DNA from: Marinobacter nitratireducens
GTDB lineage: Bacteria > Pseudomonadota > Gammaproteobacteria > Pseudomonadales > Oleiphilaceae
Direction: 5' to 3'
Assembly: GCF_000708045.1 (NCBI RefSeq)
Contig: NZ_ANIE01000009.1
Span: 248,001-312,000 of the forward strand
DNA: 64,000 nucleotides
The notes below the pieces were generated by a model. It had not been told where the DNA came from, did not search any database, and saw only the letters and a program-made list of their open reading frames with translations. Shown here in pieces: positions 24,174 to 37,668 of the stretch. The translations under genes and the position numbers were made by a program. Every line of letters begins with the position of its first letter. Position 1 is the first letter of the stretch.

Positions 24174-24503
24174 GGGCCTTCCCCCAAGGTTTCACAAAGT
24201 TTTATGACTCTATCATGTTCTTGTTTTTCAAATGCTTATGTCTGGCTTTTCGCGATGGTTGTCGTAAATGACATGAAAATTGATCTTTAGTGCCATCCTC
24301 TGAATTCGCATTTCTTTGCTAATGTTGGGACGGGTTACGCCCAAAAGGTGTGAACCTATCAGCAAAAGTTTGCATGGGAATGATTGACAACGGAAATCTA
24401 CGTTGACCATTCGTTACAAAAACCTTGTTAAAAACGGCAGAACAACGGCCGATACATGTCTACAGTGAAGATACGTGCTCACACGCATAGGGGAGAACAA
24501 AAA
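24174..24503 (+). promoter_or_regulatory. 330-bp control region upstream of the Tad pilus operon
   Basis: No gene seen; it is visibly AT-richer than its surroundings. Two weak promoter candidates for flp: TGGGACG-N4-ACGC at 24326-24340, which keeps the GG-N10-GC of sigma-54 promoters but has a poor -12 block, and TTGACC (24403-24408) with a 17-base gap to TGTTAA (24426-24431), a poor sigma-70 match. The divergent unknown gene at 24173 also needs a promoter here. Confidence 0.4.
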
Positions 24504-24737
24504 ATGCTGAATACCTTCGTTCATATCGCACAACTGATTATGGTGAATATTCAATCCAGAACTCCGCGGATTGGCGGGAAGCAGGCCGGCGCTTCGGCTC
24601 TGGAGTACCTGGTACTTGCAGGGGCCCTGGTTGCCATCATGATCTTCGCGTTCACCAATGACACCATCAAGAATACCGTGAGTGACATCTTCTCCGGTCT
24701 GTTTGATGAGGTGCCATCTTCTTCCTCCGGCGCCTGA
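24504..24737 (+). CDS. flp: Flp-type class IVb pilin
   Basis: 77 residues. A basic leader ends at KQAG, followed by ASALEYLVLAGALVAIMIFAF; cleavage after Gly leaves Glu at position 5 and Tyr at 6 of the mature protein, the Flp hallmark. The mature pilin is about 50 residues with a serine-rich tail. The ATG at 24504 is chosen because GGGGAG lies 8 bases upstream (24490-24495); the frame is open to 24456 but that would add a spurious leader. First gene of the Tad operon, and the only pilin of this type here. It polymerises into the adhesive Flp fibre. Confidence 0.92.
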   Translation: MLNTFVHIAQLIMVNIQSRTPRIGGKQAGASALEYLVLAGALVAIMIFAFTNDTIKNTVSDIFSGLFDEVPSSSSGA

Positions 24738-24774
24738 TGTTGTTGTCTGATCAGTGAGTCCACGGGAGTCTGCT

Positions 24775-25221
24775 ATGACACATCGTCGGTCGAGAGGCGC
24801 GGTCGCGCTGGAGTTTCTGTTCCTGTTTCCGTTTGTGGTCGGAATTCTCTATGCGTCGGCCAGTTACGGGGTGCTGTTCTTCAACAAGTACGAAATGCAG
24901 AACGTTGTAGAACAGGCGACCAATGCAGCACTTCGGGTCGATCGCAGTACTCTGACGGATGAAACAGCAGGCGAGGCGATTGTGACGACCGCAACTTCTG
25001 CACTCGAGGAGTTGTGGTCTGCAATGCCTGCTAAACTCAAGGCGGGTGTCGAGGAAATCGGATGCTCTGAAACCACCGCGAGTGGCATTTCGATGGTGCA
25101 GTGCTCGGTCATTCGCAATAATGCCGACCAACCTCTGTTGCCCCAGGTGAGTTTTGGCTTCCTTGGCGATTTTCCGCCCATGCCTGAGAGCATGAGTGCT
25201 TCGGCCTCCGTGGCGTTCTGA
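24775..25221 (+). CDS. tadE: TadE-like pseudopilin
   Basis: 148 residues. The N-terminus RRSRGAVALEFLFLFPFVVG is the TadE motif: prepilin-like cleavage before AVALEF, with Glu at +5 and a hydrophobic helix. The rest is a small periplasmic domain with a Cys pair (around residues 96 and 108). Start ATG 24775 is preceded by ACGGGAG; an upstream GTG in frame at 24754 is less likely. TadE and TadF are minor pseudopilins needed for Flp assembly; no TadF is evident here. Lies 37 bases after flp. Confidence 0.88.
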   Translation: MTHRRSRGAVALEFLFLFPFVVGILYASASYGVLFFNKYEMQNVVEQATNAALRVDRSTLTDETAGEAIVTTATSALEELWSAMPAKLKAGVEEIGCSETTASGISMVQCSVIRNNADQPLLPQVSFGFLGDFPPMPESMSASASVAF

Positions 25222-25273
25222 TCGCAAAAAAATAATAAACTGCGGATTCGTGCGGATACAACAAGGATGAGTA

Positions 25274-26125
25274 ATGAACAAGCGACTCTTATACGCGTTG
25301 CCGGCCACCGTTCTGGCAGTGGTGGCCCTGGCCCTCGCAACGCTCGGATTTCTCACCCAGAAAAAAACGGCGGAGTCGGGCACGCCGGTTACCGTGACTG
25401 AAGCGGTAGAAGAAAAGCCGCCCGCCCACACTTATCTCGTTGCCATTGACTCAATCTCTCCGGGTACTCCGCTATCTGAGGACGCCTTTGTGTCAGTGGA
25501 CTCTGAACAGCCCGTGGCCGGCGCCATCCTCGCGTCTGATGTACCCATGGGGCAACCTGTGAAGACGGGGCTGTCTGCAGGGCAGGTGCTGAGCGCCGTG
25601 CACCTTCGAACCGATAGCCTGCTGGAGAACCTGGTTGAGCCGGGATTCCAGGCTATGGCGGTATCGGTAGATGACCTGTCGGGCGTCGGTGGCCTGCTTC
25701 GTCCGGGGGACCGGGTGGACGTCACCGTCGCGTTCCGTCGCTCCAACAAGGATCAGCCGGCTGCCATGCGCCTGCTGTCGAACGTCCTCGTCCTGGCGGT
25801 TCGGGGTGTTCCTCATCAGGGCGAGTCGCTGGAAGGCAATGATCAACGCAGGAATGCGACGGTTGTCCTCTCCGTTCCCGTTGATCTGGCACCCAAACTG
25901 CTTTTGGCCTCCAGTGAAGGCGCGCTGCGGTTGGCGGCTTCAAGCTCAAACAGTCGCGATCCGAATCTGGTTGCCACCTCGGACTCTGAAGAAAAGCCCG
26001 TCTATCTGGACGATCTGTTCCCAAAACCACCCAAGCCTGCACCGGTTAAGCAGGTAGCCGCCCCGCCCAAACCTCAGGTCGAGGTCTACGAAGGATCTGA
26101 ATCGAGGAAGGTTTATGTCAATTGA
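25274..26125 (+). CDS. cpaB: Flp pilus assembly protein CpaB/RcpC
   Basis: 283 residues. An N-terminal anchor (LLYALPATVLAVVALALATLGFL) is followed by a SAF-like domain (SISPGTPLSEDAFVSVDS) and the RcpC/CpaB core (GFQAMAVSVDDLSGVGGLLRPGDRVDV). The C-terminus is proline and lysine rich, consistent with a periplasmic spacer. It supports the outer-membrane secretin in the Tad apparatus. AAGGATGAGTA precedes the ATG. Its end overlaps the secretin gene by 11 bases. Confidence 0.92.
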   Translation: MNKRLLYALPATVLAVVALALATLGFLTQKKTAESGTPVTVTEAVEEKPPAHTYLVAIDSISPGTPLSEDAFVSVDSEQPVAGAILASDVPMGQPVKTGLSAGQVLSAVHLRTDSLLENLVEPGFQAMAVSVDDLSGVGGLLRPGDRVDVTVAFRRSNKDQPAAMRLLSNVLVLAVRGVPHQGESLEGNDQRRNATVVLSVPVDLAPKLLLASSEGALRLAASSSNSRDPNLVATSDSEEKPVYLDDLFPKPPKPAPVKQVAAPPKPQVEVYEGSESRKVYVN

Positions 26126-27269
26126 CAGGCTCATGAAATCTCCATGGATGTTGGTGGTGGCCCTGCTGATGGCGGTGGCCCAGCAGACCATTGCGGAAAC
26201 ACTGACCGGCACTCCGGTTTCGCTGGGGCAGGGCGAGCAGAAGGTGTTTTCGTTCCAGGATCCACTCAAAAGGGTGGCGATCTCAAACCCCGACGTCGCG
26301 GCGGTATCGGTATCGGATGAACGTGAAATCCTCGTTACCGCCAAGGGTGAGGGTACGGCCGTGCTCTCTGTCTGGGAGAAAGGCCGTGACGAGCCAACGA
26401 GGGCTCCCGTTGTAGTGGCGGCAACCCAGGGCGAAAAGCTGCCCTTTGGTATGCAGGTACAGACTGATATCAGGATTGTAGAAGTCAACCGCAGTGAATT
26501 GAATCAGCTCGGTGCGTATTACACCAAGTTGTTTGACGGTGGGAGCCTGGGAGCCTCCTTTGGTGCGCCAGATGCAGTCATTCCGTCGCTCGGCGCCACG
26601 AATGGATTCAACTTCTTCCGGTTCGGCACCAACTCGCTGGCGGTGATCAATGCGCTTGAGTCCGGAGGCTTTGCCTACACCCTGGCAGAGCCGTCCCTGG
26701 TGTCACTCAGTGGTCAGAGTGCGACGTTTCTGTCCGGTGGCGAGTTTCCGATACCCATCGACAGTGGCAACGACGGCATTGAGATTGAGTACAAGGCCTT
26801 TGGTGTCAGCCTGAGCCTGACGCCAACCGTCGTAGATGAGGAACAGATCATCCTGAAGGTTGCACCGGAGGTGAGTGATCTGGATTTCTCTGCCGGTATT
26901 TCCACCGGTGGCGTGACGGTGCCGGGGCTCCGGGTTCGTCGGACGGAAACCACCGTATCCATGGGGCCCGGAGAGACGTTCATTATCAGTGGGCTGGTCA
27001 GCCGGAATACCATTAACAACAGTGACCGTATTCCAGGGCTCGGCAGCCTTCCGGTGCTGGGGGCTCTGTTCCGATCAGACCGGATATCCAGTGAAGACCG
27101 GGAGTTGATTATGGTGGTGACCCCTCACATCGTCAGCCCGAGTAGCCAATCTGGCCGCGATCTGAGTGCCATCGCCAGGGACTATGAGCAGGGGAGTACC
27201 CGGTTCATCGATATGGCCGTCGGGTCGGAGCCCGGAACCCGTCCAATCAAATACGGATTCAGTTGGTAA
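26115..27269 (+). CDS. cpaC: Tad secretin RcpA/CpaC
   Basis: 384 residues, short for a secretin but usual in this Tad subgroup. It has a signal peptide (ending QQTIAE), an N-terminal pilus-associated domain with the BON-like KRVAISNPDVAAVSV motif, and a C-terminal secretin domain (SFLSGGEFPIPI, VPGLRVRRTETTVSMGPGETFIISGL). It forms the outer-membrane channel for the Flp fibre. AGGAAGG lies just before the ATG. Followed after 4 bases by tadZ. Confidence 0.92.
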   Translation: MSIDRLMKSPWMLVVALLMAVAQQTIAETLTGTPVSLGQGEQKVFSFQDPLKRVAISNPDVAAVSVSDEREILVTAKGEGTAVLSVWEKGRDEPTRAPVVVAATQGEKLPFGMQVQTDIRIVEVNRSELNQLGAYYTKLFDGGSLGASFGAPDAVIPSLGATNGFNFFRFGTNSLAVINALESGGFAYTLAEPSLVSLSGQSATFLSGGEFPIPIDSGNDGIEIEYKAFGVSLSLTPTVVDEEQIILKVAPEVSDLDFSAGISTGGVTVPGLRVRRTETTVSMGPGETFIISGLVSRNTINNSDRIPGLGSLPVLGALFRSDRISSEDRELIMVVTPHIVSPSSQSGRDLSAIARDYEQGSTRFIDMAVGSEPGTRPIKYGFSW

Positions 27270-27273
27270 GCCT

Positions 27274-28452
27274 ATGTCAACGGAAGAAATACTGGTTTGT
27301 GTCTCAGACGACATCGGAATCCGCACCTGGCTTGAGCGGAGCCTGCAAGGCGCCTGGCCGGTCGAGTTTGTAGGTTCGTCTGACCTTTCCCGGATCAACC
27401 GGTTGGTCGCGGCGACCGGTACACGGTTGGTCATGGTCAGCGCTGATGAAAATGAACCTGAAAAGGCGCTCAGGATCATCTCCGCTCTGGCGAAAAGTGA
27501 TGAAGACCTCGTGGTGGTCAGCGTGGTGCGCCGCGTGGTTCAGGATTTTCTGTTGAAGAGCATGAGGGCGGGCGCCCGGGACTGCTTTATTGCCAGTAGT
27601 GATGGAGAAGAGCTGCGCAACCGGATCAATGATTTTCGTTTCTCAGCGTCCAAGGCTCCCAGACCTGAGGTCGCGGGTAGTAAAAAGATCGTACTGGTGA
27701 CCAGTGCGAGCCCGATTGTCGACACCCGTTTTTTCGCCCAGAACCTGGTGTTTGCGACCAACTACTTCCTCCCGCACGAGCGGATACTGGGGCTGGATAC
27801 AGCCGCAGATGACCGACATGCCTTCTATCTTGATAGCAATAACCGGCTGACCCTGGAAAACCTGCTGGATAACCCGGACTCGTTGGATGCCTCTCTGATC
27901 GCGACAGCCCTTGAGGAGTATTTGCCGAATCTGCGGTTCCTGTCTGGGCAACTGCCAATGAATGAAGGGGGGGAGGAGCGCAATACCGACCTGTTCATTG
28001 TCATGAGTCAGTTGGTGGGCCTCTTTGACCGCATTATCGTAAACGTCAGCCCCGCCGTAGCCGACTTCTGGGTAAACGCGGTCGGTCTGCATGCCCGGGA
28101 CCTGGTCATGATGATACATCCTGTGGTGGAACAGGCTCATGAGGCCCGTCGTCGATTGGATGCCTGGCAGGAGTGCATCTCGGCAGACTGTCGTCAAAGC
28201 CTGCTTCTCGACGGATTTGAAGGGAAAGGTTCTCCATCTCTTGGCGACATGGAGAAGGCGGTTGGCATCAACTCACTCGGCGCGCTGCCGCTGGACTGGA
28301 GTTCCCGCCTGACTGCGATCAATGCGGGCTTGCCTTTGCACCAGTTGCCAGGAAAATCCAGCTATCAACGTGAGCTGCTGAAAATTCTCAAGCGTTACGA
28401 ACTCGACAGTAACCAGGGAACGGCCCGCAAAGGGTCAACGCAACCAGCCTGA
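27274..28452 (+). CDS. tadZ: TadZ/CpaE-like pilus localisation ATPase homologue with degenerate P-loop
   Basis: 392 residues. The N-terminal ~120 residues look like an atypical receiver domain; the rest aligns in layout with the MinD-like domain of CpaE/TadZ. Where CpaE has KGGVGKT, this protein has VTSASPIVDTRFF (residues ~142-154), so the Walker A motif is missing and ATP binding is doubtful. A later segment ADFWVNAVGLHARDLVMMI corresponds to the region that follows Walker B. TadZ marks the site of pilus assembly at the pole. The start is ATG 27274, four bases after the secretin stop; the frame upstream to 27166 merely overlaps that gene. Confidence 0.82.
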   Translation: MSTEEILVCVSDDIGIRTWLERSLQGAWPVEFVGSSDLSRINRLVAATGTRLVMVSADENEPEKALRIISALAKSDEDLVVVSVVRRVVQDFLLKSMRAGARDCFIASSDGEELRNRINDFRFSASKAPRPEVAGSKKIVLVTSASPIVDTRFFAQNLVFATNYFLPHERILGLDTAADDRHAFYLDSNNRLTLENLLDNPDSLDASLIATALEEYLPNLRFLSGQLPMNEGGEERNTDLFIVMSQLVGLFDRIIVNVSPAVADFWVNAVGLHARDLVMMIHPVVEQAHEARRRLDAWQECISADCRQSLLLDGFEGKGSPSLGDMEKAVGINSLGALPLDWSSRLTAINAGLPLHQLPGKSSYQRELLKILKRYELDSNQGTARKGSTQPA

Positions 28453-28462
28453 GAGGTAAAGC

Positions 28463-29665
28463 ATGGCAAGCAGAACCGATCAGGAATACCAGAACCTGAA
28501 AAAGCGCGTTCATTACTATCTGGTTGAACGTCTCGACGAGGAAGGGGTGGAAGTCGGCAGGGTCAGCAACGACGTGCTGGCCACCTTTGTCCAGAATAAT
28601 GTCGCTGGCTACGTCTCCCATCATCGGACGCCGCTTTCAGCCCAGGACCTCACCAACCTGACCCGGGAAATACAGGACGAGGTGGCTGGTTTCGGCCCGC
28701 TGGAGCCGCTGCTGGCCGACGAGTCGGTCAACGACATCCTGGTCAATGGGCCTGAGGATGTGTTTGTGGAAGTGGCTGGTGTTCTTCAACGGGCGAACAC
28801 CCGGTTTATTGACGATGACCATGTCGTCCGGATTATCCGGCGTATTCTCGCCCCTCTGGGGCGTCGGCTCGACGAGTCATCCCCAATGGTGGATGCCCGT
28901 TTGCCGGATGGCTCGAGGGTTAACGCCATCATTCCGCCCATTGCCCTTGATGGCCCCTCAATCAGTATCCGGAAGTTTACCCAGAAACATCTGACGGCGC
29001 AGGACCTGGTGGATCGGGGATCAATGAGCGCTGATTGCCTTGAACTGTTGACCAAACTGGTTCAGAACCGCAGGAATATCCTGGTGAGTGGCGGAACGGG
29101 CACCGGTAAAACAACGATCCTCAACATGCTGAGCCAATACATTCCCCGGGAAGAACGGGTGGTGACCATTGAGGATTCGGCAGAACTCCAACTCAACCAC
29201 CCCCACATTGTCCGTCTCGAAACGCGACCGGCGAACACAGAAGGCAGCGGGAAAGTCACGGCCAGGGATCTGGTGATCAACTCGCTGCGGATGCGTCCGG
29301 ACAGAATCATCCTCGGCGAGGTGCGCTCCGGTGAGATCATTGAACTTCTGCAGGCCATGAATACCGGTCACGAAGGGTCCATGAGTACCATTCACGCCAA
29401 TACGGCCCGCGATGCCCTGGTCCGTATCGAGACCCTGCTTGCGGTAAACGGATACGATGCCAGTGAACGTGCTGTTGGGCGCCTGATCGGATCATCACTG
29501 GACGTTATTGTTCAGCTGAGCCGTCTGGCGAACGGCCGGCGGTTGGTCAGTGAAGTGGTGGCGCTGGCCGGTGACGGTGACGACCCGTACCGTATGGAAA
29601 GCCTCTACCGTACGGATACCGATGAAGCCGGTGAACCCATTCCGACCCTTGGGAGTGCACTCTGA
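28463..29665 (+). CDS. tadA: Tad pilus assembly ATPase TadA/CpaF
   Basis: 400 residues of the GspE/VirB11 secretion ATPase superfamily. Walker A is VSGGTGTGKTTILN (residues ~209-222), the Asp box and Walker B (RPDRIILGEVRSGE) follow, and the His-box HEGSMSTIHANTARDAL completes the catalytic set. The N-terminal FGPLEPLLADESVNDILVNG is the CpaF signature. It powers Flp pilus assembly from the cytoplasm. Ends in TGATG shared with tadB. Confidence 0.95.
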   Translation: MASRTDQEYQNLKKRVHYYLVERLDEEGVEVGRVSNDVLATFVQNNVAGYVSHHRTPLSAQDLTNLTREIQDEVAGFGPLEPLLADESVNDILVNGPEDVFVEVAGVLQRANTRFIDDDHVVRIIRRILAPLGRRLDESSPMVDARLPDGSRVNAIIPPIALDGPSISIRKFTQKHLTAQDLVDRGSMSADCLELLTKLVQNRRNILVSGGTGTGKTTILNMLSQYIPREERVVTIEDSAELQLNHPHIVRLETRPANTEGSGKVTARDLVINSLRMRPDRIILGEVRSGEIIELLQAMNTGHEGSMSTIHANTARDALVRIETLLAVNGYDASERAVGRLIGSSLDVIVQLSRLANGRRLVSEVVALAGDGDDPYRMESLYRTDTDEAGEPIPTLGSAL

Positions 29666-30582
29666 TGCCGGCGCAGACGCTCTTTGCGGCGGCGATCACC
29701 GTGTCGGTTCTGACGCTGGTGGTGCTCCTTGGGCAGTGGGTGTGGACGCGCACTGCCGGGATGCGGGCGATAGAACGCACAACGCGCATGCGCTTGTTCC
29801 CTGCGCAGGAGACAACGGTTCTTGGTGGTGCCCGGGTCGATCTGGGGCCGGTGGAACGATTGCTGGTACAGGCTGATATCGCGATGAGTCTGCAGCGGCT
29901 GACGATTTTGGCGGTCGTGTTGGTGGCGGGTCTGCTGGTGCTGTTCGTTACCCGGGGTTTGGTTGAACTGTTGGTGACCGTGTTCTTTATTTCTGTGGCC
30001 GGGGCTGTTTGGTGGCGGGTCCGGTTCCAGAAACAGCGCCGGGTCATCCACGAAGAATTACCCGGTATTATCGATGCTGCTTTGAGAAATATTGATGCCG
30101 GCCGCTCTCTGGAGCATTCGCTTATCGTAGCGTTTGATGAGTCCAGTCCGGTGTTCCAGCCACTGGTATTCCGGCTTCGCAGCGCGGTTGAAGCCGGTCG
30201 GGAATACACCGGGTTGTTTGAGGATTTTGCCCGGTTATACAACACGCCATCCATGATCCTGGTCGCGCTTGCATTGCGGACAACGTCAAGGTTCGGTTCG
30301 TCGATCAGGCCCGTACTGGAGCAGGTTGCAGCCTCGCTGCGCTCCCAGCAGGAGTTGCGACAGGAATTTCTGGCGGCAACGGCCGAGACGCGCTTCACGG
30401 CAGTGACCTTTGCTGTTTTACCGCCCGGGCTGGCGGCATACATGGTTCTGATGAACGAAGAGTATGCGGATATTCTCGTCAACACACCGACAGGCCATAA
30501 CCTGTTGATTACCGCCGGTATCCTGCAATTGATTGGTATGGCCGTGATCTGGCGGATGATCCAGGGGGTGGGCCGTGCGTGA
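29665..30582 (+). CDS. tadB: Tad inner-membrane platform protein TadB
   Basis: 305 residues with two N-terminal and two C-terminal hydrophobic segments around a cytoplasmic T2SSF (GspF-like) domain: LPGIIDAALRNIDAGRSLEHSL is the characteristic start of the domain. It anchors the TadA ATPase at the inner membrane together with TadC. Its ATG shares a base with the tadA stop, and its 3' end overlaps tadC by 8 bases. Confidence 0.92.
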   Translation: MPAQTLFAAAITVSVLTLVVLLGQWVWTRTAGMRAIERTTRMRLFPAQETTVLGGARVDLGPVERLLVQADIAMSLQRLTILAVVLVAGLLVLFVTRGLVELLVTVFFISVAGAVWWRVRFQKQRRVIHEELPGIIDAALRNIDAGRSLEHSLIVAFDESSPVFQPLVFRLRSAVEAGREYTGLFEDFARLYNTPSMILVALALRTTSRFGSSIRPVLEQVAASLRSQQELRQEFLAATAETRFTAVTFAVLPPGLAAYMVLMNEEYADILVNTPTGHNLLITAGILQLIGMAVIWRMIQGVGRA

Positions 30583-31444
30583 ATTATGGTTGGTTCTGCC
30601 CAGTGCACTGGCATTGACGGCCATTTGGATGGCGGTCTACCAGGCACCACGATGGGCCATTGCCTCCCGGATACGGGATCGCCTGGCAAAGACTGGCACC
30701 GGTGAGGGAGAAGAAGGGCAAACCTGGATAGCGGCGTTTGCTGCCTGGTTTACCGGTCTGTCCGTGGTCCAGAGTGACTTTGACGATATGGAACAGGCCC
30801 TGGAGACCACGGGGCGAACCCAGTATCAGGCGCAGCTCACCTATATTCTGCTGTGTTGGTTTCTCCCCGCATTGGCTATCCTCGCCGGTTTCCTGATAAC
30901 GGGGCCAATCGGCGGCTCTTTTATCGCTGCGGTTGCGTTCCTGTTACCCCGCCGGGTGATTCGCACCATGGGGGCAAACGCTGAGAAACGCCAGAACCTT
31001 GAGGCCATCGAGCTTTGCCACATGACCCGGATGTTGATGGAGGCCGGGTTGTCGATCGAACGGGCCATACGCTTGATTGCCTTGCAGGCACGCCCTGTGA
31101 TGCCTCATCTGTGTGTGCGGCTGGATCGTTTCAATCGGGTCATGGAAAGTGGGGCAGATCGTACGGAAGCTCTGGAGGAACTTGGACGCAACCGGAAAAT
31201 CCTGGTGTTGCGCAGTTATGTCAACCTGATGAAACAGAGCGGTAGCCTTGGTGCGGGCGTGTCTTCCAGTCTCGAACAGATTATCCGGGAAGCCCAGCAA
31301 AATGAGCGGGCGCGCCTGAAAGAAGAAACCAACCGGATCGGTGCCAAAATGACGATAGTGATGATGGTGTTCATGTTGCCGGCACTCTTCATCCTGGTCG
31401 GGGGACCTGCCGTCCTCTCCATTGCCGAATCGTTCGGGCGCTGA
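30575..31444 (+). CDS. tadC: Tad inner-membrane platform protein TadC
   Basis: 289 residues, a second T2SSF-domain protein (AIELCHMTRMLMEAGLSIERAI, SSLEQIIREAQQNERARLKEE) with TM helices near residues 90-125 and at the C-terminus (MTIVMMVFMLPALFILVGGP). It starts with GTG inside the end of tadB, so translation is coupled. Partners TadB in the membrane platform. Confidence 0.91.
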   Translation: MRELWLVLPSALALTAIWMAVYQAPRWAIASRIRDRLAKTGTGEGEEGQTWIAAFAAWFTGLSVVQSDFDDMEQALETTGRTQYQAQLTYILLCWFLPALAILAGFLITGPIGGSFIAAVAFLLPRRVIRTMGANAEKRQNLEAIELCHMTRMLMEAGLSIERAIRLIALQARPVMPHLCVRLDRFNRVMESGADRTEALEELGRNRKILVLRSYVNLMKQSGSLGAGVSSSLEQIIREAQQNERARLKEETNRIGAKMTIVMMVFMLPALFILVGGPAVLSIAESFGR

Positions 31445-31449
31445 TCAAC

Positions 31450-32184
31450 ATGAGATTCAACAGGAGCGATATCAAGTTGCGACACGGATTGATTCACCCT
31501 ATGCCCAGTTTTGTGCGTCCCATGGCAGCGTTGCTGGCATCAGCGGTTTTGGCTGGTTGTGCAACCACAATGCCGCCGGAAACGTCATACAGTGAAGAGC
31601 CCACATTACATGTGAGCTGTCGGACCCAGGTGCAGCCGGAAGAACGGCTCCAACTTGATGTAATTGACGAGAAAATCGGAAACGATCAGTTGTACGCAGC
31701 GTTAGCACAGCTGGAAAGCGAGCCACTGGGTACAGAGCAGCATTGGTTGAGGCGTGGCCAATTGTACGTGATCACCGGCCAGATGGCAGATGCACGGGAG
31801 CTATTTGAAGCGCTGGCGCTGCAATGCGACTCGGCAAGTAGCCACCACGGCCTGGGGCTGGTGGCGATGAAACAGGGGCGATTTGCGGAGGGGGTGGATC
31901 ACCTCGCTATCGCGAGAAAAAAGGCACCGATTTCCGGCAAGATTCGTAATGACTACGGCTATGCGCTGTTGCAGGTGAATGAGATCGCCACGGCGACCTA
32001 CGAACTGAGAACGGCTTTTGAGCTGGCAAACGGCGAGGGCAGTGCCCGACAGAATCTGGCCGTTGCCTACATCCTTGGCAAAGATTCTGCCGGGCTGAAA
32101 TGGATGCAAACCCGTTATGGATTAACCCGGGCAGAGCTTGAACATGCGCAGAAAATCGCGCAACGCATGGGGAGATCGCAATGA
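31450..32184 (+). CDS. tadD: Tad lipoprotein TadD with TPR repeats
   Basis: 244 residues from ATG 31450. A lipobox (AVLAGC, Cys at residue 37) gives an outer-membrane-targeted lipoprotein; a second ATG at 31501 would leave a more usual 20-residue signal peptide (MPSFVRPMAALLASAVLAGC) and may be the true start. The C-terminal part has TPR-like repeats (LRRGQLYVITGQMADARELF, IRNDYGYALLQVNEIATATY). TadD assists secretin or fibre assembly. Overlaps the next gene by 4 bases. Confidence 0.88.
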   Translation: MRFNRSDIKLRHGLIHPMPSFVRPMAALLASAVLAGCATTMPPETSYSEEPTLHVSCRTQVQPEERLQLDVIDEKIGNDQLYAALAQLESEPLGTEQHWLRRGQLYVITGQMADARELFEALALQCDSASSHHGLGLVAMKQGRFAEGVDHLAIARKKAPISGKIRNDYGYALLQVNEIATATYELRTAFELANGEGSARQNLAVAYILGKDSAGLKWMQTRYGLTRAELEHAQKIAQRMGRSQ

Positions 32185-32465
32185 GCGTACGGTATTGGAT
32201 TTTGCTGGCTTTGATGATCGGGGCGGCACAGGTGAGCGCGGGGGAGACCTATGAGTCAGGTTTCAGTTCGGGTGTGATCAATGACGTGCCAGAAAAACAT
32301 CATCGCTCAAAGGTGAGCGCGCAGCTGGAACAGCAGGCTACCACAGGCCAGCCTGATGAAGGGGAGCTTGCTGTGGGCGTGTTCGTTGACACCCAGGCGA
32401 GAATCGCGGAAACCTTCCGGCGCCCCGTGCCTGATCAAATGCTGAACGAAACCCGTGGTGAATAG
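32181..32465 (+). CDS. Small exported protein of the Tad operon (DUF3613-like)
   Basis: 94 residues with a cleavable signal peptide (LLALMIGAAQVSAGETYESG). The C-terminal half (VDTQARIAETFRRPVPDQML) resembles the DUF3613 family of short proteins found in Tad loci; that match is from memory. It overlaps tadD by 4 bases and ends one base before the tadG start, so it is an integral member of the operon. Function unknown; a periplasmic role in pilus assembly is inference from context. Confidence 0.75.
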   Translation: MSVRYWILLALMIGAAQVSAGETYESGFSSGVINDVPEKHHRSKVSAQLEQQATTGQPDEGELAVGVFVDTQARIAETFRRPVPDQMLNETRGE

Positions 32466-32466
32466 A

Positions 32467-34230
32467 ATGAATGCGCGACGTCAGACCGGGGCCCTGATGG
32501 TCATCACGCCGCTGGTCATTACCGCGATTCTTTTGTTCACAGCGCTCGCGATTGATGGCGCACGCCTGCTATCCCTGCGGGCAGACATGCAAAGTCAGGT
32601 AAATGCAGCGGCGACGGCTGCAGCGGGAGCCTCTCAAGCATGTGGTGGCGCGGCGGTCTCCATGCAAACCATGAATGCCCGGGCACTGGCGGCGGCTCAG
32701 GCTCAGGGATTTGATGGCGATGCGTCGGATCTTGTGGTGCAAGCCGGAGTCATTGAGAAATCCGCATCAAACCCCAGCGAGGTCGTTTTTCGGCCGGTCA
32801 CGGATATTGCTCAATCCAATGCCACGAGGGTGAGTTACAGTCGCGATGAGCCCATTTCACGGCTGTTGCCGGATGGATTCCTTGATGATGTCCGGGTTTC
32901 CGTAAACTCCGCGGTCAGAAAAGAGGTGATTGCCTCTATCAGCGCGGCGGGCTCGACTGCCGGCGTTGACGGAGGCCTGGTGGGAGCCCTGCTTGGCGGC
33001 ATACTCGGGCAACCGGGGTATACGCTTGATCCCACGGACATGAGTAGTCTCGGGAACACCCTGTTCTCGGTAGGGGACCTGCTCGATGGCCTGGGTGTCG
33101 GCACCCTCGAGGATGCCTTGCCCCTTGGAGCTGATGAGCTGGCAACGGCCATTCGGACGGTTGGTGGTGCGGCAACGCCGGCAGGCGATCTTGCGACCCG
33201 CCTGTTGTCCGCCTCCGGTATCGAGACGGTGGTTATCAGCGATGTCATCTCCACGCTCAGCGAGGCCGAAGTGCCCCGTGATGCAAAGTTCCGGGCCTAT
33301 GACCTGCTGGTCAGTACGGCCCTCAACGTGCTGCAGCAACAGCAGATCCTGAGTGGTTCGCCTCTGACGATCACCAACCTGAATGCGTTGGGATTACCCC
33401 TGACGTCAGCGATTGATCAGAACTCGCTGACACTTGAAGTCTATGTCAATCGGCCACCAACGGCTGCGGTCGGTCCGGCACGGCAGGACATAAACGGCGA
33501 CTGGATTACGACGTTTTATGCACCGGACATCAGCCTCGAAATCGGCGTCAGCGCCGAGCTGCCAACCCTTAACCTGCTGGGCCTGGCTGAATTCGGCATC
33601 GGTTCCCTGGTGATTCCGCTGGCTGTGGACCTTGGTGGTGGGCAGGGGGCGCTGGTGTCTGCAAGCTGCGCCGCTGGCGGCAATAACGATGTCGTTTTCG
33701 GGATGGACATGCAACGCCAGGCGGTGAGCCTCGGTACTGGCACGATTGATGAACCCACCGGCGATCACCTCAGTGATCCGTTGGACGTCAATATTGGCAC
33801 GTTAAAACTGTTGGCGGGGCTCATCACTATCGATCCGATAGTCGGCCTTGAGGCCACAATTGATGGCACGATTGGCTCGGTTTCGGCTACCGAAACCATG
33901 AATCCGGCGTATCCTCTGTACTGCGGTGCTGGCGGCTGTTCAAGTCTGGTCTATGATCAGAATAGCGGTGGTTTCTCAGGGACCAGTTTCAGCGTTCAGA
34001 TCATAGACTTGGAAATACTGGCTACCGGAATCGATACCAGCCTCGCCAATGCCATCCTGTCCACGGTAACGGGGCTATTGAATACCGTAGTGGGCAGTTT
34101 GCTTGAAACCCTGGTGGACCCGCTGGCGGAGGCCCTTGGCGTTGGAATCGGGGGTATGCAGGTGACAATCTATGAGGCCTCTCAGAGCGGCAGCCAGCTG
34201 ATCGAGAACATCGAGGTGGTCGGTAACTGA
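32467..34230 (+). CDS. tadG: TadG-like pilus assembly protein
   Basis: 587 residues. The N-terminus is the TadG/DUF2134 type: a basic leader then GALMVITPLVITAILLFTALAIDGARLL, followed by a helix (DMQSQVNAAATAAAGASQACGG). The remainder is a long, low-charge extracytoplasmic region rich in Gly, Leu and Asp with only a handful of Cys residues; I see no von Willebrand A motif. Start ATG 32467 lies one base after the preceding stop; an upstream GTG is in frame but sits inside that gene. TadG is anchored in the inner membrane and is needed for Flp production. Confidence 0.83.
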   Translation: MNARRQTGALMVITPLVITAILLFTALAIDGARLLSLRADMQSQVNAAATAAAGASQACGGAAVSMQTMNARALAAAQAQGFDGDASDLVVQAGVIEKSASNPSEVVFRPVTDIAQSNATRVSYSRDEPISRLLPDGFLDDVRVSVNSAVRKEVIASISAAGSTAGVDGGLVGALLGGILGQPGYTLDPTDMSSLGNTLFSVGDLLDGLGVGTLEDALPLGADELATAIRTVGGAATPAGDLATRLLSASGIETVVISDVISTLSEAEVPRDAKFRAYDLLVSTALNVLQQQQILSGSPLTITNLNALGLPLTSAIDQNSLTLEVYVNRPPTAAVGPARQDINGDWITTFYAPDISLEIGVSAELPTLNLLGLAEFGIGSLVIPLAVDLGGGQGALVSASCAAGGNNDVVFGMDMQRQAVSLGTGTIDEPTGDHLSDPLDVNIGTLKLLAGLITIDPIVGLEATIDGTIGSVSATETMNPAYPLYCGAGGCSSLVYDQNSGGFSGTSFSVQIIDLEILATGIDTSLANAILSTVTGLLNTVVGSLLETLVDPLAEALGVGIGGMQVTIYEASQSGSQLIENIEVVGN

Positions 34231-34255
34231 ATCCCCTCAACAAGGAACGGGGTCT

Positions 34256-36340
34256 ATGCAGGCAGGGTTTGAAGAAAACTGGTTTGCAGCGGGGCAAAGT
34301 GGGCTGTTTTCGCTTCTGCCCTATCTGTTGATTGGTCTGCTGCTCGCCTTGGCTGTGGCGCTCTTATACGTACGCCATCTGAAAAAACACATCCATCAAT
34401 TGATGTTTGATGTGGGTACGCGCTCCCGTAATCTGCGTAATGCCGACAGGGAGCTGAAAACTCTGTTTGACCAATCCAGTATTGCCGTATTCCTGATGGA
34501 CGCCCAGACCGCGTCGGTTCTCTACGCCAATACCACGGTGCTGGAGGCGTTTGGCGTTCTCAGTGCCGAGCACCTGAGCACCGATGTGCTTCAGCGACCG
34601 GATGCCTGGGCACCGGCTCCCTATAGTCTGAGGGATTTTGAATCTCTGGTCGGCGAGGCCATGCGGGCAGGCACGAAGTCCTTCGATTGGCAAATCCAGC
34701 CTGCCAGAGGGCAGGAAATCTGGCTCGAGTGCTCTTTGTCTTTCCTGACCTACAAATCGAAGCAGGCCATGATGTTTACCGGCGTGAATGTGACCGCCCG
34801 GAAACAGACCGAAGATCTTGAGAAAAATCGCCAACGGGCGCTGGCATCCATGGCAAGCGATAGCCCACTACACCAGACGTTGGACCAGATTGCGTCAGTG
34901 GCGGAGTCCGCCCTGCCAGGTGCGCGCTGCGCCATCATGCTCAAGGACTCGGAGCAATACCGGCTTCGTTGGGCCGGCGGCCGAAGCCTGCCCTCGGCAA
35001 TGCGCGATGCGCTGGATGGTGTCGCTATTGGCTATGGCGAAGCCAGCCCCGGAACGGCCGTATTCACCGGAACGCGCGTGGTTACCCGCAACACCAATGC
35101 GGATGAGCATTGGGCGAAGTGGTATCAACTGCTTGATGCTACGGGTGTCCGGGCCTGCTGGTCAGAGCCAATTCTCGGTCGGGGTGGCGAAACCCTGGGT
35201 TCGTTCGATGTCTACCATGATGTTCCCTGGACGCCAGGTGATGCAGACGTGGATCTGCTGACCGGGCCGGTTTTCCTGGCTAGCCTGGCCATTGAGCGAC
35301 ACCGTGCGCAGATGCAGCTCGAGCAGATGGTGGTCTCGGAAAAAGCCGTAAGGCGTATCAGCACGGATCTGCTGACGATCAATGGTGATGATGCTGCTGA
35401 AGGGCTGGAGCGCACCTGCTCTGCCTTGGGGCATTTTTTCCGGGCAGACAGAGTGTTTCTGTGCCGAGTCGATGACGCATCGCAGGAACTCAGGATCAGT
35501 CATGAATGGGCAGGAGAAGGATTGCCACTTTTGCGGCCGCAAATTTCGAGGCCTTTGCCGGTCATACCGGTCAGTCTGGAGGCGCTGTTCAAATCCTCAC
35601 CGTCCCCGGTTTTCGACGGCAACCATCCGGTACCGCCCATGCTGCAGTTTTTAGGCGAGCCGTTGGGGTTGGGGAGTTCACGGTCATTAGTGTTAACCGG
35701 AATCTATCAGGGAGAGCGGCTCATTGGTCTGCTGGGCCTGGTGAAAACGTCGACGATGCGGGCGTGGACGACCGAACAGCTTGAAAACGTGAAGCTCATG
35801 GCCAGCCTGATGGGTAACGTTTTGACCCGTGAGAAGCTGCTCAGCTCCCTCACATTCAGGGCGGTTCATGATCAGCTTACCGGCCTCTATAACCGCCATA
35901 AGCTGGAAAGCTTTATGGAGCAGGAAGTCGCTCGGTGTGAGCGTTACAGTACAACCTTCTCGGTGATTATTTTTGATCTTGACCACTTCAAGTCGATTAA
36001 CGACCGCTATGGACACAACGAGGGTGACAGCGTCCTAGCCGGGGTTGCGAAGATCGTCGAGGGCGATATCCGGGAATCTGAGATTGCCGGTCGCTGGGGT
36101 GGTGAGGAATTCCTGATACTGCTGCCTGAAACCGGGTTACAGAATGCCTCGGCCGTCGCCGAACGCATACGCCGTCATGTGGAAGCGTACCGTTTCTCGA
36201 TCCCGGTTCCTGTCACCATCAGTGTCGGCGTCGCGACGTTCCAGCAAGGCGACAAGCCCCACCACATCCTCCAGCGAGCCGATGGCGCCCTCTACGTGGC
36301 CAAAGGGGAAGGGAGAAACTGCGTCCGAACCGCTGCCTGA
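34256..36340 (+). CDS. Membrane PAS-GAF-GAF-GGDEF diguanylate cyclase
   Basis: 694 residues. One N-terminal TM helix (LLPYLLIGLLLALAVALLYV, residues ~20-40), a PAS domain (FDQSSIAVFLMDAQTASVLY), two GAF-like regions (around 210-360 and 370-530), then a GGDEF domain with the active variant WGGEEF. The inhibitory site reads RESE instead of RxxD, so product inhibition may be lost. It makes c-di-GMP from GTP. The ATG lies 25 bases after the tadG stop with AAGGA upstream and no terminator between, so it is the last gene of the Tad operon. Ends 5 bases before the convergent cryptochrome gene. Confidence 0.9.
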   Translation: MQAGFEENWFAAGQSGLFSLLPYLLIGLLLALAVALLYVRHLKKHIHQLMFDVGTRSRNLRNADRELKTLFDQSSIAVFLMDAQTASVLYANTTVLEAFGVLSAEHLSTDVLQRPDAWAPAPYSLRDFESLVGEAMRAGTKSFDWQIQPARGQEIWLECSLSFLTYKSKQAMMFTGVNVTARKQTEDLEKNRQRALASMASDSPLHQTLDQIASVAESALPGARCAIMLKDSEQYRLRWAGGRSLPSAMRDALDGVAIGYGEASPGTAVFTGTRVVTRNTNADEHWAKWYQLLDATGVRACWSEPILGRGGETLGSFDVYHDVPWTPGDADVDLLTGPVFLASLAIERHRAQMQLEQMVVSEKAVRRISTDLLTINGDDAAEGLERTCSALGHFFRADRVFLCRVDDASQELRISHEWAGEGLPLLRPQISRPLPVIPVSLEALFKSSPSPVFDGNHPVPPMLQFLGEPLGLGSSRSLVLTGIYQGERLIGLLGLVKTSTMRAWTTEQLENVKLMASLMGNVLTREKLLSSLTFRAVHDQLTGLYNRHKLESFMEQEVARCERYSTTFSVIIFDLDHFKSINDRYGHNEGDSVLAGVAKIVEGDIRESEIAGRWGGEEFLILLPETGLQNASAVAERIRRHVEAYRFSIPVPVTISVGVATFQQGDKPHHILQRADGALYVAKGEGRNCVRTAA

Positions 36341-36345
36341 CAGGC

Positions 36346-37668
36346 CTAAATAGGCCAGTCTGCGGCATCGACCATGTGCAGTCCTACGGGGTTATCGCTA
36401 TGGCCGCCCCAGCGGTCAATAAACGTTTCCAGCGGGTCGTATTGTTGCGCCTGCTTTTCCAGATTGAATCGTCGTAATCCCCTGGGATCGGCGCCCACGC
36501 CTGCCAGATACTGCCAGTTCCCATAATTGCTGGCGACGTCATAATCAACCAGGTGTTGCTCGAACCAGGCGGCACCGTATCGCCAATCCAGTTCCAGTTC
36601 GTTCACGAAGCAGCTCGCGACCAGTTGGCGCGCCCGATTGCTGATGTAGCCGGTTTCCCGGAGTTGATTCATGGCAGCGTTGACCACAGGGAACTCGGTG
36701 TTTCCCTCACACCAGGCCCTGAACCGGTGACTGTAGAACGTGGACGGGCGCCTTTTCCGCTGCACACCATCCCTGCGAAACAGGTTCGCTCCGTGACGGA
36801 AGGCATACCACAGAAAGTACTCGCGCCAGAGCAGCTCAAACCAGAGCCAATAGGTCGACTCGTTGCTGGTTTCGCTCTTTTCGTATTCATGGATGGACTC
36901 GGACACTTCCCGAACCGACAGGCATCCGTTGGCCAACCACGGTGACAGTTTCGACGACGAGTCCCAGTCGTCCAGCTCATTCCGTGTTTCCTTGTAGCGG
37001 GCAATTCCGTGGCTGACAAAGAGGAACTCTCTGAGTTGCTGCTGCCCCGCAGGCTCACCGCCGCTGAATTGTCCGGGATGCACAGGTTCGCTTATCGGCG
37101 GGCACTGGCCACGATTATCGTCGGGGAAACCCGGCGCTGGAGGCAGGGCCGTCAACGTGCGGATACGGAGCCTTTCGGAGTGGCGTTCGCCGGTGGACTC
37201 CACGCGTTTCCTGAACTGAGAGAAGGTGCCTGGCAGCTCATCAATGGGCATGGGCAACGAGCCCTCGGTAAACAGGCCGAGGGTCTCAAATTGCTGAAAA
37301 TGTAAGGAGGGATGTTGTTCCCTGATTGAATGCCACTGGCGAGCTTCTTCCGTGCCGGGAAGCCGGGAGCGAACGATTCGTTCGATCCGGTGTGCCTGTA
37401 CCAACTCCGGAATAATCTCCTCCGGTTCTCCCCACGCGATGTGCAGCCGTTGACCCATCGGCCGCAGGCTTCGCTCCAGTGCCATCAGGCTTTGCCACAG
37501 AAAACGCCATCGATGATCACCCATTGCCCTGCTTTGATGGGGGCCGGGTTCGAACCACCGTGGGTCCACAACGTAGACGCACAGTAGGAGGTCGGATTTC
37601 GAGGCAGCCAACAGGGCCGTATTGTCATGCAGGCGGAGATCCCGGGTAAACCAGTAGAGGGTTCGCAA
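36346..37668 (-). CDS. DASH family cryptochrome
   Basis: 440 residues. The N-terminal photolyase domain begins LYWFTRDLRLHDNTALLAAS; the linker has the DASH motif LPGTFSQFRKRVE; the C-terminal FAD-binding domain includes WFELLWREYFLWYA and the NRARQLVASCFVNELELDWR segment, ending before YGNWQYLAGVGADPRG. Cry-DASH proteins bind FAD and often a folate antenna, and repair pyrimidine dimers in single-stranded DNA or act as blue-light sensors. No photolyase-linked genes are adjacent; the next minus-strand genes, 100 bases upstream, are the MotAB-like pair. Confidence 0.92.
   Translation of the reverse strand: MRTLYWFTRDLRLHDNTALLAASKSDLLLCVYVVDPRWFEPGPHQSRAMGDHRWRFLWQSLMALERSLRPMGQRLHIAWGEPEEIIPELVQAHRIERIVRSRLPGTEEARQWHSIREQHPSLHFQQFETLGLFTEGSLPMPIDELPGTFSQFRKRVESTGERHSERLRIRTLTALPPAPGFPDDNRGQCPPISEPVHPGQFSGGEPAGQQQLREFLFVSHGIARYKETRNELDDWDSSSKLSPWLANGCLSVREVSESIHEYEKSETSNESTYWLWFELLWREYFLWYAFRHGANLFRRDGVQRKRRPSTFYSHRFRAWCEGNTEFPVVNAAMNQLRETGYISNRARQLVASCFVNELELDWRYGAAWFEQHLVDYDVASNYGNWQYLAGVGADPRGLRRFNLEKQAQQYDPLETFIDRWGGHSDNPVGLHMVDAADWPI

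Follow-up and report, generated by a model that had tools for sequence, protein, structure and literature searches.

The window analyzed here, a stretch of 64,000 nucleotides, belongs to a 3.89-Mb, 22-contig Marinobacter genome and carries on its plus strand a Tad pilus operon (24456 to 36340). The genes follow the order flp, tadE, rcpC, rcpA, tadZ, tadA, tadB, tadC, tadD, a 94-amino-acid open reading frame (ORF), tadG, and a predicted diguanylate cyclase gene, as listed here with the basis of each assignment.

24456..24737, + strand, flp, pilin-like, first operon gene (no Pfam match; named from sequence and position)
24754..25221, + strand, tadE-like gene (Pfam TadE barely over its cut-off)
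25274..26125, + strand, rcpC/cpaB (Pfam)
26115..27269, + strand, rcpA, secretin (Pfam)
27166..28452, + strand, tadZ-like gene, longest ORF (TadZ_N under its Pfam cut-off)
28463..29665, + strand, tadA/cpaF, ATPase (Pfam)
29665..30582, + strand, tadB by position (no NCBIfam match; named from order)
30575..31444, + strand, tadC by position (no NCBIfam match; named from order)
31450..32184, + strand, tadD-like gene, TPR protein (Pfam, NCBIfam)
32181..32465, + strand, small conserved ORF of 94 amino acids between tadD and tadG (no Pfam or NCBIfam match)
32455..34230, + strand, tadG-like gene (no Pfam or NCBIfam match; named from order and N terminus)
34242..34246, + strand, AAGGA, resembling a ribosome-binding site, nine bases ahead of the ATG (sequence)
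34256..36340, + strand, predicted diguanylate cyclase, terminal gene of the Tad operon (694 amino acids, ATG start; membrane-anchored PAS-GAF-GAF-GGDEF)

The true tadZ start is probably near 27274, judging from the sequence. The 94-amino-acid ORF recurred in most related loci when these were searched by tblastn. No prepilin peptidase gene is present in the operon; the only Peptidase_A24 match of the genome lies on another contig (C5), and the Flp pilin is therefore probably cut by a shared peptidase.

Placement of the cyclase gene in the Tad operon

Only 25 bp separate the tadG stop (34230) from the start of the cyclase gene (34256), and the next gene, a photolyase-like ORF running convergently, begins at 36346. 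A scan of the 25-bp gap returned no sigma-70-like or terminator-like match, which is weak evidence because the promoter and terminator scans gave no more sites than shuffled sequences did. The promoter scans covered a single promoter type, and with them no promoter was identified upstream of the Tad operon either. A GGDEF-type gene adjoins tadG in all 17 Tad loci of this kind that were compared, with gaps of −26 to +73 bp as measured from the longest-ORF start. The same strand as tadG, the short gap, and the conservation of the arrangement in 17/17 GGDEF-type loci place the gene within the operon and suggest that it is co-transcribed with the pilus genes. The first-pass annotation of this DNA had reported the short gap, the ribosome site, and the missing terminator; these were borne out, the last of them weakly. 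Its proposal that pilus and cyclase genes are expressed together gained support from the gap and from the synteny in relatives that it had named as a check. Taken as a whole, its observations stood and its interpretation was supported in part, as detailed below.

Domain architecture of the predicted cyclase

The protein combines a probable membrane anchor, a three-domain sensor, and a GGDEF output domain.

34304..34372, + strand, hydrophobic stretch, residues 17 to 39, probable single membrane anchor (sequence reading)
34454..34789, + strand, PAS domain (Pfam PAS_8 at residues 67 to 119; fold in the model to about residue 178)
34868..35263, + strand, first GAF domain, residues 205 to 336 (Pfam, E 1.1e-19)
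35399..35824, + strand, second, divergent GAF domain, residues 382 to 523 (Pfam GAF_3, E 2.9e-7)
35861..36319, + strand, GGDEF domain, residues 536 to 688 (Pfam, E 1.9e-46)

The GGDEF domain scored 158.2 bits against a Pfam cut-off of 23.8, and the PAS and GAF-like domains named in the first-pass annotation were recovered as PAS_8, GAF, and GAF_3. An AlphaFold2 model of the 694-residue protein (mean pLDDT 80.7, pTM 0.50, from a 17-row alignment) supports the domain order helix, PAS, GAF, GAF, GGDEF. In that model the anchor stretch starts a long predicted helix of 69 residues (residues 5 to 73).

The active site is intact and the primary I-site carries a fixed Asp-to-Glu change

Three features bear on catalysis and on product inhibition.

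35933..35935, + strand, R560, aligned with the secondary I-site Arg of PleD (invariant in 17 Tad cyclases)
36071..36082, + strand, primary I-site RESE, residues 606 to 609, RxxE in place of RxxD (sequence and alignment)
36095..36112, + strand, WGGEEF active-site motif, residues 614 to 619 (sequence; intact)

The WGGEEF motif, D574, N582, D591, E617/E618, K683, and R687 are invariant across the 17 Tad cyclases. We infer from these residues that the GGDEF domain is catalytically competent, so that the active motif noted earlier holds, with activity as a prediction. The primary I-site does not conform to RxxD, and the secondary-site Arg is present as R560; its PleD counterpart is R313.

The window's four remaining GGDEF proteins have RSGD, REWD, RESD, and RESD at this site, just as the first-pass annotation had it. 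The genome has 48 GGDEF matches, of which 45 were examined (5 in the window and 40 elsewhere, leaving out the 3 that scored lowest). RxxD was found in 35 domains and RxxE in the window cyclase only, the rest being without the R or the D/E; canonical GG(D/E)EF motifs occurred in 33 of the examined domains, and 29 of these 33 had RxxD. Decay of the site in a single protein was rejected as an explanation, as RESE is fixed throughout the nearest clade (11/11: the window protein plus 10 homologues with 51 to 64% identity to it). The other six Tad cyclases all have RxxD (RVAD, RSAD, RSAD, RAAD, RASD, and RKSD). Glu609 belongs to a set of 23 alignment columns conserved without change in the 11 proteins of the RESE clade and absent from those six; it is thus characteristic of the clade but not singular, since 23 columns are clade specific in the same way.

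Published work points in two directions. RxxD keeps its Arg and Asp in 57% of cyclases, and R158A abolishes inhibition of a Thermotoga enzyme (available text of PMC4215984). RxxE is cited, with Christen 2006 as the source, among I-site variants that relieve autoinhibition while activity is kept, and a D221E variant of MsLadC is described as near wild type (both from the available text of PMC12805367). The I-site of the window protein is altered rather than destroyed, because R606 and R560 are kept and only Asp is changed to Glu. The Asp-to-Glu change noted in the first-pass annotation is therefore real, but "degenerate" is too strong a term for it. The further claim of a cyclase lacking product inhibition is plausible given the cited relief by RxxE, but the two retained arginines and the near-wild-type D-to-E variant make "weakened or retuned" the safer wording. 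Glu at position 609 in the window's clade probably weakens product feedback while the arginine contacts are kept.

It is quite possible, if short of probable, that Glu609 simply stands in for Asp609 and that RESE has no special meaning, in which case the protein would be an ordinary product-inhibited cyclase and one more Tad-linked source of c-di-GMP. The retention of R606 and R560, the conservative nature of the replacement, the behavior of MsLadC-D221E, and the 22 other clade-specific columns that accompany E609 in the set of 23 all agree with such an enzyme. It fits less well with the cited relief of autoinhibition by RxxE (Christen 2006, via the available text of PMC12805367) and with a genome in which 45 domains have RxxE once and RxxD 35 times. 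Weakened feedback is the reading carried forward here.

Tad loci of relatives carry the same sensor with one of two outputs

A scan of the genus with the window cyclase matched 15 of 120 genomes at E<=1e-60. Fourteen of these matches were Tad linked; the fifteenth, in G012, was 34% identical and represented a separate cyclase upstream of a Tad locus of a second type (below). The separate GGDEF protein there (L069:3801-5972) has 723 amino acids, lies about 6 kb upstream of the Tad operon, and has an N terminus without a Pfam match. The closest homologue was in G063, of the same genus, and a related-locus search of genome contigs returned one close relative only, Marinobacter salinexigens. With TadA as the query, 51 of 120 genomes matched at E<=1e-60, 30 of them with TadA of a close type (72 to 85% identity), and a scan of the family added G160 and three genomes from two other genera. 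About 20 kb was examined around each close-type locus.

A homologous PAS-GAF-GAF sensor gene follows tadG in 35/35 Tad loci of this subtype examined in the family. Each locus has one output type: the sensor is joined to a GGDEF domain in 17 and to a SpoIIE/PP2C phosphatase in 18. The 31 Marinobacter genomes with close-type TadA divide into 13 GGDEF and 18 PP2C; the further GGDEF loci are that of G058, whose contig begins inside tadC, and three in other genera. The idea that the sensor gene is absent from Tad loci without a cyclase match was rejected, as the PP2C-type gene sits after tadG there. Such loci were hidden in the first scan because its query was the cyclase, and they were seen only by reading the gene after tadG. 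The sensor slot is thus not tied to a cyclase output, PP2C with RsbW and STAS being present instead in 18/35 loci.

Six less closely related Tad loci of the genus were examined and did not show the full sensor, and tblastn of the fetched stretches of seven neighboring-family and six more distant loci, one of which (L101) ends 8 kb in, found no homologue of the window cyclase or of the PP2C-type protein. Two of the neighboring-family Tad loci (L091 and L092) have two tandem tadG-like stretches.

The PP2C-type protein has the same N-terminal module followed by a SpoIIE-type phosphatase domain (Pfam E 2.1e-41 and 9.9e-46 in the two of the 18 proteins tested). The metal-binding motifs expected of a PP2C phosphatase are present as GDVSDKG (18/18), SDGVTE (17/18), and QSDD(I/M)T (17/18). 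Genes for an RsbW-like HATPase and a STAS protein directly follow the PP2C gene in 18/18 loci (blastp, with Pfam on one pair), and this set is, as predicted from its genes, a partner-switching cassette. No RsbW or STAS gene on the tad strand was found beside the GGDEF gene in the examined stretch of any of the 17 GGDEF-type loci. In a whole-genome STAS search at E<=1e-8, 14 of 15 GGDEF-type genomes (G107 and G058 left out) had no match and 4/4 PP2C-type genomes had one.

Two other ORFs occur at PP2C-type loci. One, of 132 amino acids, is present after STAS in 14/18; its Pfam match was below the cut-off and was judged to be due to chance. The other, of 406 to 434 amino acids, lies between tadG and the PP2C gene in 6/18 (L071, L082, L083, L084, L090, and L104), with a lipoprotein-like start and, in the one tested, a peptidoglycan-binding domain; a link between pilus and cell wall is a possible role.

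The sensors of the two types are homologous

Profiles of 17 GGDEF-type and 16 PP2C-type sensors aligned by hhalign with a probability of 100 and an E value of 2.7e-78 over 510 columns, an alignment that starts at the membrane helix and ends in the linker ahead of the output domain, at a pairwise identity of 22 to 26% between the PP2C-type sensors and the window sensor. A combined sensor profile found one full-length copy (at least 511 of 526 positions), located at Tad, in each of 13/13 genomes with the Tad subtype. Because several of these genomes supplied rows of the profile, finding a copy in the 13 is no surprise; the informative result is that none had a second one. No full-length sensor was found in 3/3 genomes lacking the subtype, in which matching went no further than the first GAF domain.

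Among 369 genomes of the class, there was one other full-length match only, in G522, from another family. The protein (L157:12495-15344) is organized as periplasmic-binding-domain-TM-PAS-GAF-GAF-GGDEF, has the I-site RDSD, and has no Tad homologue nearby. Sensor-PP2C proteins were found in 19 of 124 Marinobacter genomes, comprising the 18 with PP2C-type Tad loci and one off-Tad copy, in G049. The latter genome has a GGDEF-type Tad locus plus a second sensor pair away from Tad (L159:6480-11776, contig C22), where sensor-GGDEF (degenerate AGDRY, I-site RSSD), sensor-PP2C, RsbW, and STAS stand in a row. Both outputs can thus stand together, and a row of this kind is a possible source for gene replacement.

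The cyclase output probably came first

A tree of seven Tad proteins from 39 taxa (LG+G4; 9 of 48 taxa, fragments and close duplicates, left out) nests the PP2C loci within the GGDEF loci. UFBoot values were 93 for RESE with PP2C, 86 with the addition of L061 to L063, 95 with the addition of L065 and L066, and 88 for the whole family, which is moderate support; a FastTree analysis of all 48 taxa agreed (0.926 for RESE with PP2C). On the Tad tree, a single GGDEF clade was rejected (AU p=0.0005), as was a grouping of PP2C with L061 to L063 (AU p=0.0004). A grouping of RESE with L061 to L063 was not rejected (AU p=0.067), and GGDEF is still paraphyletic there. The most economical history has a single change from GGDEF to PP2C, because GGDEF is paraphyletic under either surviving arrangement, and the cyclase output is probably ancestral, since the Tad-gene trees reject one GGDEF clade. 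The sequences thus indicate that a partner-switching cassette probably took the place of the cyclase output on one occasion.

The sensor tree does not favor PP2C as the sister of RESE. When the G049 paralogues were left out, the arrangements were not separated (AU 0.50 versus 0.575), with a support of 52 for RESE with L061 to L063. When they were included, that support was 86 and both paralogues, whose branches are very long (2.0 and 2.9 substitutions per site), joined the Tad PP2C sensors (UFBoot 100). Because this tree does not choose between a swap of the C terminus and replacement of the whole gene, a simple exchange of domains in place was given less weight.

Replacement of the whole gene deserves serious weight without being the favored account: the PP2C gene and its RsbW/STAS neighbors would have come entire from a paralogous cassette like the one away from Tad and displaced the cyclase gene. 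The gene row of G049 is just such a cassette, and the UFBoot value of 100 joins both its sensors to the Tad PP2C sensors. That grouping may be long-branch attraction, however, given the branches of 2.0 and 2.9 substitutions per site; the off-Tad PP2C copy is present in 1/124 genomes and could itself derive from the Tad copy; and the sensor data alone leave an in-place history unrejected (AU 0.50 versus 0.575). A single replacement of the cyclase output remains the preferred history by either route.

A model for the sensor-cyclase and its meaning

We think it fairly likely that the window protein is a conserved sensor-cyclase of this Tad subtype, co-transcribed with the pilus genes and tuning the pili via c-di-GMP, with E609 weakening its feedback, and that it occupies a slot whose output can be replaced. 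A membrane-anchored cytoplasmic sensor (TM-PAS-GAF-GAF) would be made together with the pilus genes. Its state, set by a signal acting on the sensor, would be relayed by the helical linker to the dimerized output domains, and in the active state the paired GGDEF domains would make c-di-GMP near the Tad machinery. Local c-di-GMP would then tune pilus activity and the commitment to attachment. In the window's clade Glu609 would loosen product feedback. In the sister lineage the same kind of sensor would drive the PP2C phosphatase to dephosphorylate STAS, shifting the partner of STAS through the adjacent RsbW/STAS switch.

The first-pass annotation had gone further, proposing that building the pilus would raise local c-di-GMP. 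Co-transcription alone does not imply this: the enzyme is probably gated by its membrane-anchored PAS-GAF-GAF module, and Tad pili of Caulobacter become more numerous at moderate c-di-GMP, whereas high levels favor their retraction (available text of PMC6581867).

By analogy, the Tad sensor could be a socket into which two outputs plug, both converging on c-di-GMP, one directly through a cyclase relieved of feedback and the other indirectly through STAS activation of a separate cyclase, as with SiaC and SiaD. Convergence is proposed because the Sia and Hsb switches of Pseudomonas act on cyclases, and we regard it as speculative and rather unlikely. That the cyclase gene is a mere neighbor of the operon, transcribed from a promoter of its own and having nothing to do with the pilus, is very improbable: the promoter scans cover one promoter type and the genome has 48 GGDEF domains, but adjacency is kept in three genera and with both output types, and copies of the sensor occur at the Tad locus only in 13/13 genomes searched.

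If the sensor-cyclase model is right, the locus bears on how pili and c-di-GMP are coupled and on which of the two is upstream, with a cyclase encoded in the pilus operon itself. The sister lineages, with the same pilus, a homologous sensor, and a different output, are a natural control, and comparing both types would part sensor input from the effect of c-di-GMP on the pilus. The fixed RxxE is likewise a natural experiment, one that asks whether feedback can be retuned by a single methylene group of the I-site.

Comparison with known systems

The titles and abstract openings of the literature on Tad pili, I-sites, and partner switching, with subscription papers mostly outside this scope, gave no account of the present arrangement. 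The core gene set and order of the window operon are the same as in Tad/Flp loci of other bacteria; the difference lies in the sensor protein, of which the seven neighboring-family and six more distant loci had no homologue (tblastn of fetched stretches).

WspR, PleD, and other RxxD-inhibited cyclases have the GGEEF active site and the I-site arginines, primary and secondary, in common with the window protein. They differ from it in that the window protein has Glu for the primary I-site Asp and a PAS-GAF-GAF input instead of a receiver domain.

The bacteriophytochrome-linked cyclase IsPadC (PDB 5llw, 5llx, and 6et7) was the best PDB sequence match of the window GGDEF domain (E 3e-41) and the best Foldseek match of the whole model (E 2e-30, with a TM-score of only 0.36). 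Both proteins have a PAS-GAF-GAF-like sensor ahead of GGDEF; the window protein differs in that it has no Cys ahead of the PAS domain and appears to be membrane anchored. Assignment as a bacteriophytochrome was rejected, as Pfam gave only PAS_8, GAF, GAF_2, GAF_3, and GGDEF and no PHY, PAS_2, or phytochrome GAF domain. The likeness to IsPadC is one of architecture and not of membership, because Pfam finds no phytochrome domain.

SiaD (NF038266) was the best NCBIfam match of the window GGDEF domain and was rejected as an identification (183.6 bits against a cut-off of 290). A parallel to the Sia system is at the PP2C-type loci, which have a PP2C phosphatase, a kinase, and a STAS-like protein, as do SiaABCD and HsbR/HsbA/HsbD of Pseudomonas aeruginosa. 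According to the available text of the reports, the Sia and Hsb partner switches of P. aeruginosa feed into a cyclase (PMC7647112, PMC5085249); in Pseudomonas the cyclase SiaD is controlled by SiaC together with the PP2C phosphatase SiaA and the kinase SiaB, and the cyclase HsbD is bound by HsbA, a STAS-type protein (PMC7647112, PMC5085249, PMC8457831). The present Tad loci differ from these systems in that one output replaces the other and in that the sensor is a TM-PAS-GAF-GAF module.
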